The notes under the pieces are model-generated. The model made no database searches and was not told the origin of the DNA. It saw only the letters and a program-made list of their open reading frames with translations. Shown one piece after another: positions 11,277 to 34,254 of a stretch of DNA of 64,000 nucleotides. The position numbers and the translations under genes were made by a program. Each line of letters begins with the position of its first letter. Within the stretch, counting starts at the first letter, position 1. The stretch comes from Microbacterium sp. (GTDB lineage Bacteria; Actinomycetota; Actinomycetes; Actinomycetales; Microbacteriaceae): contig NZ_JAPSIY010000002.1 in assembly GCF_031178445.1 (NCBI RefSeq), positions 186,001-250,000 on the forward strand. Direction: 5' to 3'.

Positions 11277-12092
11277 TCACCGTCTTCCCGCCTTGCGGCG
11301 GAAGAGCCACGCGCCCCACGCCACGGCGATGGCGAGGATGAGCACGCACCAGATCACGGCCCAGACCGGCTCCGAGTCGACCGTCGACCCCATCAGAAGC
11401 GAACGGATGCTTTCGACGATGGGAGTGATCGGCTGATGCTCGGCGACCGGGCGCAGCCAGTCCGGCATGCTCTCGACGGGCACGAAGGCGCTCGAGAGGT
11501 AGGGCAGGAACAGCAGGACGAAGCCGTAGCCGTTCGCGCCCTCGGGCGAGCCCGCGGCGAGACCGATGGCGGCGAAGAGATACGTGATCGCCAGGATGTA
11601 GAGGGCGATCAGCGCGGCCGTCAGTACCCACTCGCCCGGAGTCGCGGTGGGCCGGAAGCCGACGAGCACGCCGACGCCGATCACGATCGCGGTCGCCACG
11701 AGGTTCCGGATGAGGCTCGCCACGACGTGGCCGGTGAGCACGGCACCTGCACGCAGCGGCATGGTGCGGAAGCGGTCGATGATGCCGGTGCGCATGTCGT
11801 TGGCGACATAGACGGCCGTGGAGGCCGCGCCGAATCCGGCGCAGGTGAGGATGATGCCGGGCACGACGTAGTCGACGTAGGCGCCGGAGGGGTCGATCGC
11901 CCCGCCGAAGACCCAGGTGAACATGAGCATGAGCATCACGGGCAGCATGATCGCCATGAGCAGCGATTCGCCGTCGCGGATCGAGTGGCGCAGGCTGCGG
12001 CCGACGAAGACGAGCTCGGCGGTGGCGCCGCGCAGCCGCGGGCGGGCTGCGGGGACGGAGGGCGCCGTCGGCGCGGTGGTGATGGCGGTCAT
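11277..12092 (-). CDS. ABC-2 type exporter permease (DrrB-like)
   Basis: Six-TM ABC2 permease pattern: SLLMAIMLPVMLMLMFTWVFGGAID...VPGIILTCAGFGAASTAVYVANDMRTGIIDRFRTMPLRAGAVLTGHVV. Confidence 0.88.
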   Translation of the reverse strand: MTAITTAPTAPSVPAARPRLRGATAELVFVGRSLRHSIRDGESLLMAIMLPVMLMLMFTWVFGGAIDPSGAYVDYVVPGIILTCAGFGAASTAVYVANDMRTGIIDRFRTMPLRAGAVLTGHVVASLIRNLVATAIVIGVGVLVGFRPTATPGEWVLTAALIALYILAITYLFAAIGLAAGSPEGANGYGFVLLFLPYLSSAFVPVESMPDWLRPVAEHQPITPIVESIRSLLMGSTVDSEPVWAVIWCVLILAIAVAWGAWLFRRKAGRR

Positions 12093-13006
12093 GCGGACTC
12101 CTTGGCGGATGCGGCGCCGACGAGACGGTCGGCGCGGGAACGGTCGGATTCGGTCAGTGCGAGGAACACGTCGTCGAGGGTCGGGCGGTGCAGCGTCACG
12201 GTTCCCTTCGCGCCCTGTTCGTCGAGCTGATCGAGGGCTCGGCGCAGATCGGACAGCGTTCCGTCGGTCGGGATCCGTCGCAGCAACTCACCGGCTTCGT
12301 CATGGACCTCGACCGTGTCTCCGCCGACGCGGGCCTTCAGCTCGGTCGCGGTGCCGAGCGCGGCGATGCGCCCGTCGTGCAGCACGGCGATACGGTCTGC
12401 CAGCTGATCGGCCTCTTCGAGGTACTGCGTGGTGAGGAACACCGTGGTGCCGGCATCCGCCAGAGAGCGGATGATCTGCCACAGGTCGCGGCGGCTTCTT
12501 GTGTCGAGGCCTGTCGTGGGCTCGTCGAGGTACAGCACCTCGGGGGTCACGACGAAGCTGAGCGCAAGATCGAGTCTGCGCCGCATGCCTCCGGAGTAGG
12601 TGCGCACCAGGCGGGAGGCGGCTTCGGTGAGCCCGAATCGCTCGATGAGCTCTGCTGAGCGACGCTTCGCGGCTCGTGGAGTCAGGCCGGAGAGCCTTGC
12701 GAACATCACGACGTTCTCGGTGGCGGTCAGCGCGTCGTCCACGGCAGCCGATTGGCCGGTGAGGCTGATCCGCTGCTGGACGGCGACGGGATGGGTGCGC
12801 ACGTCGAATCCGGCGACGTGCACCGAGCCCGAGTCCGCTCGCGTGAGCGTGGTGAGGATGTTGATGGTCGTCGTCTTGCCCGCCCCGTTGGGGCCGAGCA
12901 GAGCGAAGACCTCTCCGCGGGCGACCGTGAGGTCGATCCCGTCGATGACGGTGTGATCGCCGAAGCGCTTGCGGAGGTCCCTGACGTCGATCGCGACTGC
13001 GGTCAT
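12089..13006 (-). CDS. ABC transporter ATP-binding protein (DrrA-like)
   Basis: MTAVAIDVRDLRKRFGDHTVIDGIDLTVARGEVFALLGPNGAGKTTTINIL...YSGGMRRRLDLALSFVVTPEVLYLDEPTTGLDTRSR; start ATG 13006 (the 402-aa track ORF is over-extended). 4-bp overlap with the permease. Confidence 0.93.
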   Translation of the reverse strand: MTAVAIDVRDLRKRFGDHTVIDGIDLTVARGEVFALLGPNGAGKTTTINILTTLTRADSGSVHVAGFDVRTHPVAVQQRISLTGQSAAVDDALTATENVVMFARLSGLTPRAAKRRSAELIERFGLTEAASRLVRTYSGGMRRRLDLALSFVVTPEVLYLDEPTTGLDTRSRRDLWQIIRSLADAGTTVFLTTQYLEEADQLADRIAVLHDGRIAALGTATELKARVGGDTVEVHDEAGELLRRIPTDGTLSDLRRALDQLDEQGAKGTVTLHRPTLDDVFLALTESDRSRADRLVGAASAKESA

Positions 13007-13027
13007 GGGTCTTGTCCTTTCTGTGGA

Positions 13028-13067
13028 GGTCATAAACTGTGTATGCCAGATACAATTGTGTATGACC
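13028..13067. promoter_or_regulatory. Candidate TetR operator region (DrrAB-like/TetR intergenic)
   Basis: Outer IR GGTCATA (13028-13034)/TATGACC (13061-13067); inner GATACA-ATTG-TGTATG (13049-13064) and TGTAT-GCCAG-ATACA (13040-13054). Confidence 0.7.
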
Positions 13068-13097
13068 ATAGCACACGGTTTATCAAATAAACAGAAG

Positions 13098-13103
13098 TAG
13101 GAT
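13098..13103 (+). promoter_or_regulatory. -10 box consistent with leaderless TetR mRNA
   Basis: TAGGAT, 6 nt before ATG 13110. Confidence 0.6.
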
Positions 13104-13109
13104 GTCGGC

Positions 13110-14039
13110 ATGGCCGAGGAACTTCCCGAGCTCCCCAGGGGCATCGCACTGGCGTGGGGTGTCGCCGCGAACCCGCAGCGCGGGCCGAAGCGCGAGATGA
13201 GCGTGGAGCGGATCGTCGACGCCGCCGTCGAACTGGCCGATGCCGACGGACTCGGTGCCGTCTCGATGGCCGCAGTCGCCGCAAAGCTGGGCTTCACGCC
13301 GATGTCTCTGTACCGTTACGTCAGCGCGAAGGACGACCTTCTGCTGCTCATGCAGGAGCAGGCGACAGGTCTGCCGCCCGAGGAGCATCGTGAGCACGAG
13401 GGCTGGCGCGACAGGCTGCGCGCGCTGTTCGAGGCGCAGGTGCTCATCTACCTGCGCCATCCGTGGATCCTGTCGCTGCCCATCACCGGATCGCCGATCA
13501 CCCCCAACAGCTCGGCTTGGATCGACGCTGGCCTCGAGGCGCTCGCCGCGACGCCGCTCTCGGAGACGGAGCGCCTGGCGACCGCCCTGGCCATGACCGG
13601 TCACGCGCGCTGGTACGGCATGGTGCTGGCGGGATACGCGGACCAGGCGCGCACGAAGGGGCTGAGTGCGGACGAGGTCTCGGCCGAAGAAGCGGCGCTC
13701 TTCGATCGGGTCATCGTCGCGGAGGAGTTCCCCCATCTCCGCAGAGCCATCGATGCGGGCGTGTTTACCGCGGCCGACGATCCGTTCCGCTTCGCCATGG
13801 AGCGTCTGCTCGACGGCGTCGGCATGTACATCGACGCCCTCGAACGGGGCGACGCGCACGCGGCGGCCCCGGGATGGGTCGACCTCGACCCCGCAGAGCT
13901 CACCGGCGACAAGAAGTACCGCGAGGCGCAGAAGGCGGTGCGGGACGCCGAGAAGGCTCTGCGTGATGCGCGCAAGATCGAGCGCCAGGCCCGCAAGGAC
14001 GCGCTGGACCGCGCGGCGCGCGGCCGCCGCGATTCCTGA
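13110..14039 (+). CDS. TetR/AcrR-family transcriptional regulator
   Basis: SVERIVDAAVELADADGLGAVSMAAVAAKLGFTPMSLYRYVSAKDDLLLLM HTH; divergent from the DrrAB-like exporter. Confidence 0.92.
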   Translation: MAEELPELPRGIALAWGVAANPQRGPKREMSVERIVDAAVELADADGLGAVSMAAVAAKLGFTPMSLYRYVSAKDDLLLLMQEQATGLPPEEHREHEGWRDRLRALFEAQVLIYLRHPWILSLPITGSPITPNSSAWIDAGLEALAATPLSETERLATALAMTGHARWYGMVLAGYADQARTKGLSADEVSAEEAALFDRVIVAEEFPHLRRAIDAGVFTAADDPFRFAMERLLDGVGMYIDALERGDAHAAAPGWVDLDPAELTGDKKYREAQKAVRDAEKALRDARKIERQARKDALDRAARGRRDS

Positions 14040-28644: not shown

Positions 28645-30690
28645 CTACGCGGCGGCGAGCACCGCCCTCGCACTGGTCGTGCGGCGGGTGGCGACCGCGA
28701 GCGTCGCCGCGCTGAGCGACAGCACCGCCCATACGACGAGCCCTGTGACCGCTGTGCCGCTCGGCTCGATCAGGCCGCTGAGGGCGGGGGAGGTGGGCAT
28801 CGCGGCGCCGAGGCCGGCGAGCCACCCCGGAATCGTCGAGATGAGGCCGGTCGCGACGGCGACGACGCCGATCAGCGCGCTGATCCAGCGCCCGATGCCG
28901 CCGAGTACGGCCACCAGCGCCTGGTTGACGGCGGCGAACGCGATCCCAGCGAGCACGGCGAGTCCGGCGAAGCCCCACCACGTCGACGCGTCATAGCCCG
29001 CGACGATCTGCACGATGAGCGAGACCAGAATGCCCTGCCCGGCGCCCATAGCGGCAGCCGGCCAGAACCCGCGCAGCACCATGCCGATCGACGAACGGCG
29101 CGAGGTCAGGGTGCTGCCCGGCACCGCCCGCAGCGCGATGAACGACGCCAGTGCGCCGAACCACAGCACGACCGCCGAGAGCAGCGGGATGGCGGTCGGC
29201 CCGAACATGCTCGATCCCGCTCCCGCGGCCTTCACCGGGTCGGCGATGACCGACGCCAATGAGGTCGACTGCTCGTCGTCGAATGACGGCAGCGATGTGG
29301 ATGCGGTCTCGAGCCCGTCGGCGAGGTCGCCGGTGCCGCTGGCGAGGGTGTCCAGGCCGGTGGCGAGCTCGCCCGCGCCGTCAGCGAGAGCCGTCGCGCC
29401 GTCGCCGAGCTGGGTCGCCCCGGCGGCGAGTCCTCTGGCGCCGACGGCCGACTGGCCGACGCCGTCCGCGAGTCGGCCCAGCCCCGAGCCGAGCTGCGTC
29501 GCCGCAGAGCCGGCAGTGCGCATCTGGCCGGCGATGGCCTTCGGTGCTGCGGCGCTCAGCTGAGCGAGTCCGTCTGCCGTGCCGGAGGCCGCCTGCGCCG
29601 CCGGCGCCGCGTACTGAGCTGCCGCTGCGGCCGCCTGCGCCGCCTGGGTCGACGGCTCGACCAGTCCGCTCGCGGTCGCCGCCGCCTGATCGAGCTGCGT
29701 GCAGAAGCCGGGAGTGGCGGCGCGGTCGCAGTCAGCTTTGAGGGCGGCCAGCTGCTCTGCGAGCCCGCCGACTCCCTGCTGCACTCCTGCGGTGGCCAGC
29801 TTGGCTCCGTCAGCGGCCTGCTGGACTCCGGCCGTCGCCTGCTCGGCGCCGTTCGCCGCCTCGATCAGCTGACTCGGCACGATCCCGTCGCGCTCGAGGG
29901 CAGCGGCTCCCGCGGTGAGTCCCTGTCCGAGCTGCGATGCGCCGGTGCCGGCCTCGCGCGACTTCGCGGCGATGGTGTCGAGGCCGCCGGCGAGCTGCGA
30001 GGCGCCGTTGGAGAGTTCGCCCGCTCCGTCGGCGAGTCTGCTCGCCCCGTCGGGGATCGCGCCCGCACCGGCGGCGGCGTCCTTGGCGCCGTCCGCCAGT
30101 TGCGACGCGCCGTCGGCGGCGTCGCCGATCTGGTCGCCGATCGTGGCGAAGCCGACGAGTACGTTGCCCACGGTCGCCTCGCTGAGCATGGTGCCCATGG
30201 TCGATGCCGCCACTGACGCGATCTGCTGGGTGATGAGATCGTCCGCGACGCGTCCGTCGGGCGGCGTGGTGACGGTGATCTCGGCCTGCTCGGCGGAGGC
30301 ATCGCCGTCCTGCAGCGCGGTGCCCGACGACGTGGCATCCGCGGAGAACGACTTCGGGATCGTGACGATCGCCTGGTAGGTGCCGTCGGCCAGCCCCTGG
30401 GCGGCGTCGTCCTCGTTCGAGATCACCCAGGTGAGGTTGGAGTCGAACTCGTCGGAGCCGTCGACGAGGCCCGCCGCGAGCTGGCGGCCGAGTGGCGTGT
30501 ACTGATCGTCGATGGTCACCGGCTTGTCGAGGTTGACGACCGCCGCCGTCATCGAGTCCAATCGCTCGGTCGGGTTCTGCAGCGCCGCGACGAGGATGCC
30601 GCCGATCACCGCCGGCAGCAGCAGCACGCCGATGATCGTCAGCCACGTGATGGGCCGGCGCGAGCGGGCGCGTTCGATGGGAAGGGTCAT
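28645..30690 (-). CDS. YhgE/Pip family membrane protein
   Basis: N-terminal TM, long Ala/Gly-rich repeats (ASQLADGAKDAAAGAG...LADGAGELSNGASQLAGG), C-terminal TM cluster; typical YhgE/Pip. Confidence 0.9.
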   Translation of the reverse strand: MTLPIERARSRRPITWLTIIGVLLLPAVIGGILVAALQNPTERLDSMTAAVVNLDKPVTIDDQYTPLGRQLAAGLVDGSDEFDSNLTWVISNEDDAAQGLADGTYQAIVTIPKSFSADATSSGTALQDGDASAEQAEITVTTPPDGRVADDLITQQIASVAASTMGTMLSEATVGNVLVGFATIGDQIGDAADGASQLADGAKDAAAGAGAIPDGASRLADGAGELSNGASQLAGGLDTIAAKSREAGTGASQLGQGLTAGAAALERDGIVPSQLIEAANGAEQATAGVQQAADGAKLATAGVQQGVGGLAEQLAALKADCDRAATPGFCTQLDQAAATASGLVEPSTQAAQAAAAAAQYAAPAAQAASGTADGLAQLSAAAPKAIAGQMRTAGSAATQLGSGLGRLADGVGQSAVGARGLAAGATQLGDGATALADGAGELATGLDTLASGTGDLADGLETASTSLPSFDDEQSTSLASVIADPVKAAGAGSSMFGPTAIPLLSAVVLWFGALASFIALRAVPGSTLTSRRSSIGMVLRGFWPAAAMGAGQGILVSLIVQIVAGYDASTWWGFAGLAVLAGIAFAAVNQALVAVLGGIGRWISALIGVVAVATGLISTIPGWLAGLGAAMPTSPALSGLIEPSGTAVTGLVVWAVLSLSAATLAVATRRTTSARAVLAAA

Positions 30691-33509
30691 GCGTTCACCT
30701 CGGAGCTGTCGGAGCTTTCGTTCGAGTGCTGAGAGCCCGCGCTGTCGTCGGCATCCCGTGCTGCGGGCGTCGCCGTCGCGGGGTCCGGACGGGAGGCGGG
30801 GGAGTCGGCGCGGTCGCGCAGGTCGATGACGGATGCCGCACGCCGGCCGGCATCGACCAGGAGCGCGCGAGCGGACGCGGCGTCGACGGCGGTGGCGAGC
30901 ACGGCGGTCTGCTCGCCGGTGTCGCGCAGCCGAGCGGCGAGCTGATCGCGCTCGGCCTGCGTCAGCCGGTCCACGCCGTCCAGCACGACGAGGCTGGAGC
31001 GGCCACGCAGCGCCTCGGCGATCTGCTCACCGTCAGCGGTGTCCCCCAGCAGGGCGATGCCGACGTGGGCGCGCACCCACGCCGCGCGACCGGGAAGCAG
31101 ATGACCTGCGACGCGCAGCATCCCGGCGTCCGGCTTCACCCGGCCGGCGATCATCAGCGCGAGAGTGCGAAGCGTGCGCTGGCGGGCACCGGTGACGATG
31201 AGCGTCCCGCCGGGTGCGAGCCTCAGGTGCGCGCCCGCGATGCCCGCCGCATCCAGGGAGAGATCGTCGGCGGCGACCACGCTGTCATCGCCCGGCCATC
31301 CGGCCAGGGCGCGTTCGCGCTCTACAGCCTCGCCCTCGATGTCCACGTGCGGCAGGACGCGCTCGAGCCAGCGCGGGATGCGCCAGGCGCGGTCGCCGAG
31401 GATGGCCATGACGGCCGGGATCAGCGTCATCCGCACGAGGAACGCGTCAATGGCGATGCCCGCTGCGAGGCCCAGCGCGATCGGCTTGAGCGAGGAGTCT
31501 CCCTCCGGCACGAACGCCACGAAGACCGCGAACATGATCAGCGCCGCGGCGGTCACGACCCTCGCCGTGCCGGAGAAGCCCGTGCGCACCGCGCGGATCG
31601 CAGCCTTTCGGCGCGTCGCCGGGTCGTGCCGGTCGGCGTCGTGCACGTAGTCCTCACGCATGCGCGACACGAGGAAGACCTGGTAGTCCATGGCGAGCCC
31701 GAACAGCACGCCCATCAGCACGATCGGCATGAAGCTGATGATCGGCCCGGTTCTGGCCACGTGCAGCGCGTCGGCGAACCAGCCCCACTCGAACACCGCC
31801 GCCACGACTCCGAAGGCGGCCACGATCGACAGCAGGTACCCGGCGGCGGCGGTGATCGGCACCCAGATCGAGCGGAAGACGACGGCCAGCAGGATCAGCG
31901 ACAGGCCGATCACGAACACGCCGAAGGGCAGGAGCGCGGCACCCAACTGGTCGGAGATGTCGATCGCGACGGCGGTGAAACCGGTGACCTTGAGATCGAT
32001 CCCGTACTCGTCGAGCCACTCGTCGTGGTGCTCTCTCAGTTCGCGCACGAGCTCCGAGGTGGCCGGGTCGTCAGGCGCGGTCTCCGGGATGATCTGCACG
32101 ATGCCGGTGTCGGCGGTCTCATTGGGGGTGGCCAGCGCCACCTCCCGTACGCCTGGCAACTGCTCGACCTCCTCGCCGAGTTCCTGCATGAGGTTCAGTG
32201 GGTCGGTCGAGGTGACGATCGTGCCGGTGAGGATCAGCGGGCCGTTGAACCCGGGGCCGAACTCCTCGGCGGTGAGATCGTAGCTGTGCCGCGCCTCGGA
32301 GTGCTTCGGCAGCACCCCGGCGTTCGGCAGCGCGAGGTTCAGGCTGAGGGCGGGCACTGCGACGATCCCGAGCCCCAGCACGATCGCGATGGTCACGAGC
32401 GCGGGCCGGCGCGTCACACCGGAGACCCAGCGCGCCGCGAAGCCCGGCCGATGCGCGGCATCCGCCTTCTTCCGCGTCTTGCGCGGCCTGCCCGCCACAC
32501 GCCCCTTCATGAAGCCGAGGAAGGCGGAGGTGAGGGTGATCGAGATGGCGACCGCGATGGCGACGGCGACCGACGCGGCGATGCCCATGGTCGTCAGGAA
32601 CGGGATGCCGGCGAACCCCAGCCCGATAAGGGCGATGAGAACCGTGACACCGGCGAAGACCACCGCCGACCCGGCCGTGCCGACGGATCGTGCGGCGGAC
32701 TCCTCGGGATCGACCCCGGCGCGTACCTGGTCCTGATGGCGGGCCATGATGAACAGCGCGTAGTCGATGCCGACCGCCAGGCCCAGCATCAGCGCCAGCA
32801 GAGGGGTCGTCGACGACACCGTGGCGAAAGCCGTGGCGGCGAAGATGCCGGCCATCGAGATGCCGACGCCGAGCACTGCTGTCAGAAGCGGCAGCCCCGC
32901 GACGACGAACGAGCGGAAGGTGACGATCAGCACGAGCAGGGCGATGAGCAGGCCGACCGCCTCGGTGAGCGTGACGGTCGGGATCGACATGGCGAAGAGA
33001 TCGCCGCCGAGCGCTGTCTGCGAGCCGTCGGGCAACGCGCCTTCGAGCTCGTCGACGATGCCCTGCAGTCGGCTCTTGGTCTCATCCGACACGTCGGTGG
33101 ACTGGCCGTCGAACTGCAGGCGCACGATCGCCGCCGCGTGCTCGTCGTTGATCATGCCGTCGATGTTCTCGTCGTACGGCGAGGTGGCCGCGAGCACGTC
33201 GTCGAGACCGCCGAGCTCGTCGACGACGTCCTCGATCTCGTCGCGGTAGGCGGCTTCGGCGATGTCATCGCCCTCCGCGGCCACCACGATGAACTGCGCG
33301 TTCGTGCCGCTCACCTGCGGGAAGGTGCGCTCGAGCTGCTCGAGACCGGCCTGCGACTCGGTGCCGGGGATCGAGAACGTGTTGTCGGTTCCAGAGCCGA
33401 GCACGAGTGCGCCGGCTCCGGCGATGCCGAGGACGATGAGCCAGCTGACGAGCACACGCCACGGGTGTCGGAACGACCAGCGCCCGAGCGACGACAGGAA
33501 AGTGGACAC
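30687..33509 (-). CDS. MMPL-family RND transporter with C-terminal ABC-NBD-like extension
   Basis: VSTFLSSLGRWSFRHPWRVLVSWLIVLGIAG...GLAVGIDYALFIMARHQDQVRAG...VLMGVLFGLAMDYQVFLVSRMREDYVHD (MMPL signatures); extra ~160 aa after TM12. GTG start 33509 (the 1021-aa track ORF is over-extended). ATGA overlap with the YhgE gene. Confidence 0.9.
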   Translation of the reverse strand: MSTFLSSLGRWSFRHPWRVLVSWLIVLGIAGAGALVLGSGTDNTFSIPGTESQAGLEQLERTFPQVSGTNAQFIVVAAEGDDIAEAAYRDEIEDVVDELGGLDDVLAATSPYDENIDGMINDEHAAAIVRLQFDGQSTDVSDETKSRLQGIVDELEGALPDGSQTALGGDLFAMSIPTVTLTEAVGLLIALLVLIVTFRSFVVAGLPLLTAVLGVGISMAGIFAATAFATVSSTTPLLALMLGLAVGIDYALFIMARHQDQVRAGVDPEESAARSVGTAGSAVVFAGVTVLIALIGLGFAGIPFLTTMGIAASVAVAIAVAISITLTSAFLGFMKGRVAGRPRKTRKKADAAHRPGFAARWVSGVTRRPALVTIAIVLGLGIVAVPALSLNLALPNAGVLPKHSEARHSYDLTAEEFGPGFNGPLILTGTIVTSTDPLNLMQELGEEVEQLPGVREVALATPNETADTGIVQIIPETAPDDPATSELVRELREHHDEWLDEYGIDLKVTGFTAVAIDISDQLGAALLPFGVFVIGLSLILLAVVFRSIWVPITAAAGYLLSIVAAFGVVAAVFEWGWFADALHVARTGPIISFMPIVLMGVLFGLAMDYQVFLVSRMREDYVHDADRHDPATRRKAAIRAVRTGFSGTARVVTAAALIMFAVFVAFVPEGDSSLKPIALGLAAGIAIDAFLVRMTLIPAVMAILGDRAWRIPRWLERVLPHVDIEGEAVERERALAGWPGDDSVVAADDLSLDAAGIAGAHLRLAPGGTLIVTGARQRTLRTLALMIAGRVKPDAGMLRVAGHLLPGRAAWVRAHVGIALLGDTADGEQIAEALRGRSSLVVLDGVDRLTQAERDQLAARLRDTGEQTAVLATAVDAASARALLVDAGRRAASVIDLRDRADSPASRPDPATATPAARDADDSAGSQHSNESSDSSEVNA

Positions 33510-33536: not shown

Positions 33537-33554
33537 GGATACAGAAGTGTATCC
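33537..33554. promoter_or_regulatory. Palindromic operator O1 in the TetR/MMPL divergent region
   Basis: GGATACA-GAAG-TGTATCC, 7-bp perfect arms. Confidence 0.8.
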
Positions 33555-33570
33555 GATACATATGTGTATC
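33555..33570. promoter_or_regulatory. Palindromic operator O2, adjacent to O1
   Basis: GATACA-TATG-TGTATC, 6-bp perfect arms; centre 17 bp from O1. Confidence 0.8.
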
Positions 33571-33621: not shown

Positions 33622-34254
33622 ATGACGATCCCCGTGACGAAGCGGCGCGAGAACACCCGTGCTCGTCTGCTGGAAGCCGCGTCCCAGCTGTTCGCCGAAG
33701 TGGGCCTCGAGGGCGCCAGCGTCGAGGCCATCTGCGAACGCGCGGGGTTCACCCGCGGGGCGTTCTACTCCAACTTCGAGAGCAAGGACGAACTGTTCCT
33801 GCAGCTCGCTTCGGCCGTCGCCGAGCAGCGCCTGGCGACGGTGCGCGGTCGCATCGACGAGTTCGTCGCCTCCGGGGTGCTCACTGGAGACGCCGATCCG
33901 ATCGAACTCGTGCAGCGGATCATGGACTCCGGCATCGACGATCGCCTCGGCGTGCTGATGATGAGCGAGATCCGCATCCACGCGCTGCGCGACGAGAGCT
34001 TCGGCGCGGCCTACCGCGCCCAGGATCAGGCGATGATCGCCAGCATCGAGGAGATCATCCAGGGCATCGTCGACTCCGGGCTCTTCGCCCTGCGCATCGG
34101 CGTGCCTCAGGCTGCTCAGATGCTGATGGTCCAGTGGGAGGGCTGCATGGCGCGAGCCGCAGTCTCCGGCTATGACGGGGAGAGGCTGCATCGGGCCGGA
34201 GCCGAGGCGCTCGGCCAGCTGGTCCAGCTCATCATCGCACCGGCTGACAGCTGA
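33622..34254 (+). CDS. TetR/AcrR-family transcriptional regulator
   Basis: RENTRARLLEAASQLFAEVGLEGASVEAICERAGFTRGAFYSNFESKDELFLQL. Confidence 0.94.
   Translation: MTIPVTKRRENTRARLLEAASQLFAEVGLEGASVEAICERAGFTRGAFYSNFESKDELFLQLASAVAEQRLATVRGRIDEFVASGVLTGDADPIELVQRIMDSGIDDRLGVLMMSEIRIHALRDESFGAAYRAQDQAMIASIEEIIQGIVDSGLFALRIGVPQAAQMLMVQWEGCMARAAVSGYDGERLHRAGAEALGQLVQLIIAPADS

Follow-up and report, generated by a model that had tools for sequence, protein, structure and literature searches.

The window analysed here, a stretch of 64,000 nucleotides from a Microbacterium sp. contig (NZ_JAPSIY010000002.1), contains two overlapping minus-strand genes, which encode an MMPL (RND) transporter with an additional C-terminal domain and a YhgE/Pip family protein, and a divergent gene for a TetR-family regulator. 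The genes, the parts of the MMPL protein and the sites between the divergent genes are as follows.

33509 to 30687, minus strand: MMPL gene with the fused tail; GTG start, ORF of 940 aa
31335 to 33509, minus strand: MMPL (RND) transporter body, residues 1-725 (Pfam MMPL; Asp-Tyr pairs)
30825 to 31292, minus strand: degenerate ABC nucleotide-binding domain (NBD) on the MMPL C-terminus, residues 740-895 (AF2, Foldseek, profile matches, alignment with YhgE-partner NBDs)
31167 to 31190, minus strand: Walker A remnant GARQRTLR, residues 774-781 (ungapped alignment against GPSGSGKT of fused relatives)
31059 to 31124, minus strand: hyper-conserved segment GMLRVAGHLLPGRAAWVRAHVG, residues 796-817, proposed docking surface (per-site entropy)
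30969 to 30992, minus strand: Walker B remnant LVVLDGVD, residues 840-847 (entropy and alignment)
30690 to 30824, minus strand: low-complexity, fast-evolving C-terminal linker, residues 896-940 (dN/dS)
28645 to 30690, minus strand: YhgE/Pip family protein, 681 aa (TIGR03061, Pfam ABC2_membrane_3)
33622 to 34254, plus strand: TetR-family regulator, divergent from MMPL (NCBIfam TetR-type matches)
33538 to 33553, no strand: TetR operator-like inverted repeat 1, GATACAgaagTGTATC (motif count and relatives)
33555 to 33570, no strand: TetR operator-like inverted repeat 2, GATACAtatgTGTATC (motif count and relatives)

The pump body contains two Pfam MMPL repeats (E 1.5e-78), and the Asp-Tyr pairs of the proton relay, one in each half of the protein (D249/Y250 and D608/Y609), are intact. 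The MMPL stop codon and the YhgE start codon share the ATGA at 30687-30690, an arrangement that is fixed: YhgE lies directly 3' of the tailed MMPL gene in all 78 relatives with enough sequence, with an overlap of ATGA in 76 of them and of GTGA in the other 2. A preliminary description, made from the sequence alone, had named the MMPL gene, quoted sequence from an extra soluble region behind it (which is indeed present in the ORF) and proposed translational coupling to YhgE through this overlap, and these points agree with the domain matches and the relatives. The tail itself is present in 80/80 top relatives. In a Microbacterium relative among them (L061) the reading frame of the tail apparently shifts immediately ahead of the Walker A motif, owing perhaps to a sequencing error or a recent loss. 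An MMPL encoded on another contig of the same genome (C29) has no such NBD tail.

Both fold and ancestry make the tail an ABC NBD, because PDB profile matches, the AF2 model and Foldseek matches to ABC ATPases all lead to this assignment, and its likeness to an NBD is not due to chance. The AF2 model of the tail had a pLDDT of 91.1 and a pTM of 0.88, and when it was submitted to Foldseek 566 PDB chains matched at E<=1e-3; all of the 50 listed were ABC ATPases (ABC ATPase probability 1.00), the best among them being FtsE (6.4e-8). A profile of 48 related tails matched EcfA1 (the best PDB match, 3.7e-5), CbiO and CFTR NBD1, in two collinear segments that leave out the middle. NCBIfam gave weak partial matches only for the window tail, the best being CarA (3.7e-5) and NodI (1.6e-3). 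Because a Pfam scan of the tail returned no ABC_tran match, the NBD-like domain that the preliminary description had called by eye was a better assignment than a plain domain scan would have provided, and the structure prediction proposed there as a check returned the ABC NBD fold, not a fold foreign to NTPases. Two other assignments were considered and set aside: DUF6231, the sole Pfam match of the tail, falls below the cut-off (E 0.043) while profile and fold searches lead to the NBD, and a deacetylase found in a single-sequence PDB search was judged a chance match and overruled by the same searches.

The catalytic parts of this NBD have been lost. The Walker A pattern GxxGxGK(S/T) is replaced in the window by GARQRTLR, with Leu780 at the position of the canonical Lys; the Lys is gone in all Microbacteriaceae relatives, and nearly all of them have Arg for the Ser/Thr. 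Aligned to canonical ABC ATPases, the window tail has Leu at the Q-loop Gln position, and its whole helical/signature subdomain, including LSGGQ, is deleted. Walker B Asp844 is retained and Gly845 occupies the position of the catalytic Glu; the switch-loop His may be missing too, as judged by eye in the alignment. The window tail is probably non-hydrolytic. In three loci from another Microbacteriaceae genus (L121, L175 and L176) Walker A is lost and the helical subdomain is still present, and these domains represent an intermediate state. Loss of the Walker A signature had been recognised from the window alone; deletion of the helical/signature subdomain had not, so that the degeneration extends further than first described.

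The tail profile also finds stand-alone NBD-like proteins encoded immediately upstream of YhgE in other Actinomycetia. A joint profile run against 395 genomes gave 133 strong matches (E below about 1e-29) that stand apart from generic ABC ATPases, and for 129 of these 133 the next gene downstream on the same strand is a YhgE. Of the other four, three (G094, G214 and G290) are fusions to an MMPL; their YhgE did not reach the cut for listing but is visible in the loci themselves (L121, L175 and L176). Most members of this partner family are encoded on their own, and the loci examined show no MMPL near them; MMPL is therefore not essential to the NBD-YhgE pair. From the YhgE side, 129/150 among the matches listed have an NBD partner at the same cut-off; five further loci (L177, L178, L179, L186 and L187) show YhgE with a split, weaker or MMPL-fused partner, and in six YhgE loci examined (L180-L185) no partner NBD was seen, which indicates that YhgE can act without one. 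Outside the class a partner NBD was present in 3/12 loci, in one case with an intact GRNGSGKT. We regard the membership of the tail in this YhgE-partner family, as a degenerate NBD, as almost certain.

Loss of catalytic motifs is a property of the family as a whole. The Q-loop Gln, LSGGQ and the catalytic Glu were not found in any aligned member, the Glu position being Asp or another residue. At the Walker A Lys position, stand-alone members have Arg (31), His (9), Pro (5) or other residues, and four keep Lys; Lys is also kept in eight MMPL-fused members belonging to families f29 and f19, which have GPSGSGKT or GPPGTGKT together with a Walker B DD. The Arg of the motif (A/T/S)GR(M/L/V) directly after the Walker A helix (R790 in the window) is invariant in 152/152 aligned sequences, although the Walker A Lys of the same family is not. 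Several members pass the Pfam ABC_tran cut-off, and 0/6 members tested reach the cut-off of any NCBIfam model shown. The neighbour survey suggested in the preliminary description thus yielded stand-alone NBDs next to YhgE, some with an intact Walker A. Its core reading of an MMPL with a degenerate NBD-like tail, coupled to YhgE, stands; it missed the probable origin of the tail as a captured YhgE partner, and was silent on YhgE as an ABC-2-type permease and on the catalytic-motif loss across the partner family.

Several further arrangements were noted in the course of this survey. The second YhgE of the genome, on contig C10, has a degenerate NBD-like protein directly upstream (L117:8939-9694, minus strand), with AETEQRPT at the Walker A position and no NCBIfam family found. 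In L128 and L177 the NBD-YhgE pair is duplicated in tandem, one of the L177 NBD copies being apparently split across frames. Outside the class, L211, L212, L217, L218 and L219 contain tandem YhgE pairs, possibly heterodimers, for which no NBD-family partner was found.

YhgE/Pip proteins are widespread, and in Firmicutes they are known as a phage receptor or phage infection protein; to our knowledge they have no assigned transport function. The window YhgE, which has a long extracellular LxxG coiled region, matches TIGR03061, the pip_yhgE N-terminal domain (104.6 bits, 4.1e-30; cut-off 96.15), and more weakly TIGR03062, the C-terminal domain (49.8 bits, 3.1e-13; cut-off 102.2). It also matches Pfam ABC2_membrane_3 (43.4 bits, 3.1e-11; cut-off 31.6), as do seven YhgE relatives at 1e-18 to 1e-28 and up to 100 bits, and we take it on this evidence from sequence to be an ABC-2-type permease. 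Whole-chain fold matches of the AF2 model (a monomer, pLDDT 79.5) include 3cni, Wzm, KpsM, PmtCD and TarG, and are non-significant (E 0.02 and above).

In the YhgE tree all 28 MMPL-coupled YhgEs fall into a single clade (SH-aLRT 100). To account for the fusion, the NBD tree calls for one or two changes, two if the tree alone is followed, and a single clade of fused NBDs is not rejected by the NBD data (p-AU 0.387). Because the MMPL-coupled YhgEs form one clade and a clade of fused NBDs is not rejected, we favour one capture of a YhgE-partner NBD by an MMPL, after which f29 and f19 would have retained Walker A and Microbacteriaceae would have lost it. On these data separate fusions in several lineages are not favoured, despite the two-change NBD tree.

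Conservation within the tail is uneven. Across 81 sequences, residues 796-817 (GMLRVAGHLLPGRAAWVRAHVG, 22 residues) have a mean entropy of 0.45 bits, as compared with 0.60 for the MMPL body, and G796, L804, R808 and R813 are invariant (81/81); the Walker A remnant, at 1.89 bits, is the most variable core segment. Residues 796-817 are highly conserved while Walker A drifts, so that what keeps the NBD tail in place is not the nucleotide site but another surface. The equivalent stretch of canonical NBDs leads into the Q-loop region that meets the permease, and for this reason we propose residues 796-817 as a docking surface. The preliminary description had suggested that the tail would be a sensor or a scaffold; as the nucleotide site is unconserved and another surface highly conserved, a scaffold or adaptor role is favoured over that of a nucleotide sensor.

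We consider it rather probable that the tail is a non-hydrolytic adaptor, which docks the proton-driven MMPL onto the ABC-2-type permease YhgE. On this reading an MMPL would have acquired, fused to its cytosolic C-terminus, the NBD subunit of an ABC-2-type transporter with YhgE as the membrane subunit, and the ATPase parts of that NBD would have been lost afterwards. Residues 796-817 of the tail would dock on YhgE at its cytosolic face, the usual contact site of an ABC-2 permease and its NBD, and the tail would so hold MMPL and YhgE in one complex. The proton-driven MMPL would supply energy to this complex, and YhgE, which has a long extracellular part, would take the substrate onward across the wall; by analogy, amphiphiles or lipids would be the likeliest substrates. 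The structure predictions for the MMPL tail and YhgE cover monomers. We counted against the adaptor the YhgE loci that lack a partner, the stand-alone NBD-YhgE pairs that have no MMPL as neighbour, the faster evolution of the tail relative to the MMPL body, and the non-significance of the YhgE fold matches to ABC-2 transporters. Only tentatively do we suggest a further-reaching version, according to which the proton-driven MMPL replaced ATP hydrolysis as the engine of the ABC-2 permease, the former NBD being a mechanical coupler that passes the conformational cycle of the MMPL to YhgE.

If the tail were instead a nucleotide sensor, it would bind ATP or ADP without hydrolysis and gate MMPL or YhgE by energy state. 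The MMPL-fused relatives of two other families, with their GPSGSGKT or GPPGTGKT and Walker B DD, and the outgroup class with GRNGSGKT would suit such a role; in the window and all its Microbacteriaceae relatives, however, the Lys is lost, the Ser/Thr is Arg with few exceptions, and no core segment varies more than this site, and we consider a sensor doubtful there.

Selection on the tail bears on the further possibility that it is a vestige, an NBD that lost its role once the MMPL took over and is now decaying without function. In Microbacteriaceae none of the ATPase motifs is left, nor is the helical subdomain, and the MMPL body evolves more slowly than the tail by a factor of about 2.7, as a decaying remnant would lead one to expect. 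Against this, median dN/dS over 40 independent pairs was 0.13 for the pump body, 0.36 for the tail (below 0.65 in every one of the pairs) and 0.84 for the adjacent linker of the last 45 residues. The tail is under purifying selection; moreover, it contains a 22-residue segment more conserved than the pump and persists throughout the top relatives, the apparent frameshift in L061 notwithstanding. We consider a functionless remnant unlikely.

We find it similarly hard to credit that the dead tail forms a mixed pair with an intact NBD from another locus, in a system that is still ATP-driven. Pairing of a degenerate with a canonical NBD is established in heterodimeric ABC exporters, and intact ABC ATPases are encoded in the genome (for example at 12089-13297 of the window). 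However, no intact NBD gene was found beside the fused genes in the loci scanned, save unrelated ones several kb away (L119 and L121); the tail cannot complete the ATP site of a partner, because its signature subdomain is missing; and the partner family is tied to YhgE on its own. Least likely of all is a role in assembly or translation only, with the tail as a membrane-insertion or stability element for YhgE and no part in transport: the strict ATGA coupling and the fusion could serve stoichiometric assembly alone, and nothing speaks specifically against a reading that overlaps with the adaptor.

Between the TetR and MMPL genes lie two inverted repeats of the form GATACAN4TGTATC (33538-33570, 17 bp apart). 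The chance expectation for such inverted repeats in the window is 0.01, and these two are the only exact copies in the genome. The repeats recur in most relatives, a single copy being present in L156, L186 and L146, the last of which is a stand-alone NBD-YhgE locus, and a divergent TetR homologue is found in the loci of most of the 80 relatives. The divergent regulator and the twin putative operators suggest an operon that would be switched on by an inducer. Elsewhere in the window, an ABC-2 transporter of the DrrAB type, whose motifs are canonical (GPNGAGKTT, YSGGM and LDEPT; 11277-13297, minus strand), adjoins a divergent TetR-like gene (13110-14039, plus strand), and near its 5' end is an operator-like site with one mismatch, GATACAATTGTGTATG (13049-13064).

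The components of this locus resemble known systems in part. Like heterodimeric ABC exporters and CFTR NBD1, the tail has an NBD fold with lost catalytic residues, and the Lys-bearing members of its family have Asp for Glu; in those systems, however, a second, catalytic site is present in the same dimer, whereas the window tail has no known catalytic partner and no helical subdomain. The matches of YhgE to ABC2_membrane_3 and ABC2_membrane, and an NBD gene upstream of the permease, recall DrrAB, Wzm-Wzt and TarGH, whose NBDs are catalytic, unlike the YhgE-partner family with its missing Q-loop Gln, LSGGQ and catalytic Glu. The window partner exceeds the N-terminal cut-off of the YhgE/Pip family (TIGR03061/TIGR03062, with an EsaA-like N-terminal domain); the Firmicute member is known as a phage infection protein, and the papers searched describe neither NBD pairing nor MMPL fusion for the family. 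With its dedicated NBD-like partner, actinobacterial YhgE becomes a testable subunit of an ABC-2-type transporter. The pump body, with its DY proton-relay pairs, resembles MmpL3 and other MMPLs, and we know of no MMPL C-terminal extension of NBD fold. The open-access literature yielded no report of YhgE-NBD/MMPL pairing or of an MMPL-NBD fusion, which does not in itself prove novelty.

MMPL and ABC families are thought to work separately, and the Microbacterium locus suggests a joint machine: a proton pump fused to the inactivated energy subunit of an ABC transporter, beside the membrane subunit of that transporter, points to a hybrid. An NBD family without catalytic motifs, taken over by a proton-driven pump, prompts one to ask if permeases of the ABC type could operate without ATP. 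The nearest precedent for such a partnership is in mycobacteria, where MmpL7 (MMPL/RND) and DrrABC (NBD DrrA, permeases DrrB and DrrC) are both needed for PDIM export, and where the DE165-166AA change in DrrA leaves PDIM export unaffected (PMC11539658). In both cases an MMPL is partnered with an ABC-2-type transporter; MmpL7 and DrrABC are separate proteins with a recognisable NBD, whereas in Microbacterium a single chain comprises NBD and MMPL, YhgE is the permease and the ATPase motifs have been lost. The MMPL-NBD-YhgE arrangement therefore offers a compact system in which to address cooperation between RND/MMPL and ABC-2 transporters, a question that MmpL7 and DrrABC also pose.
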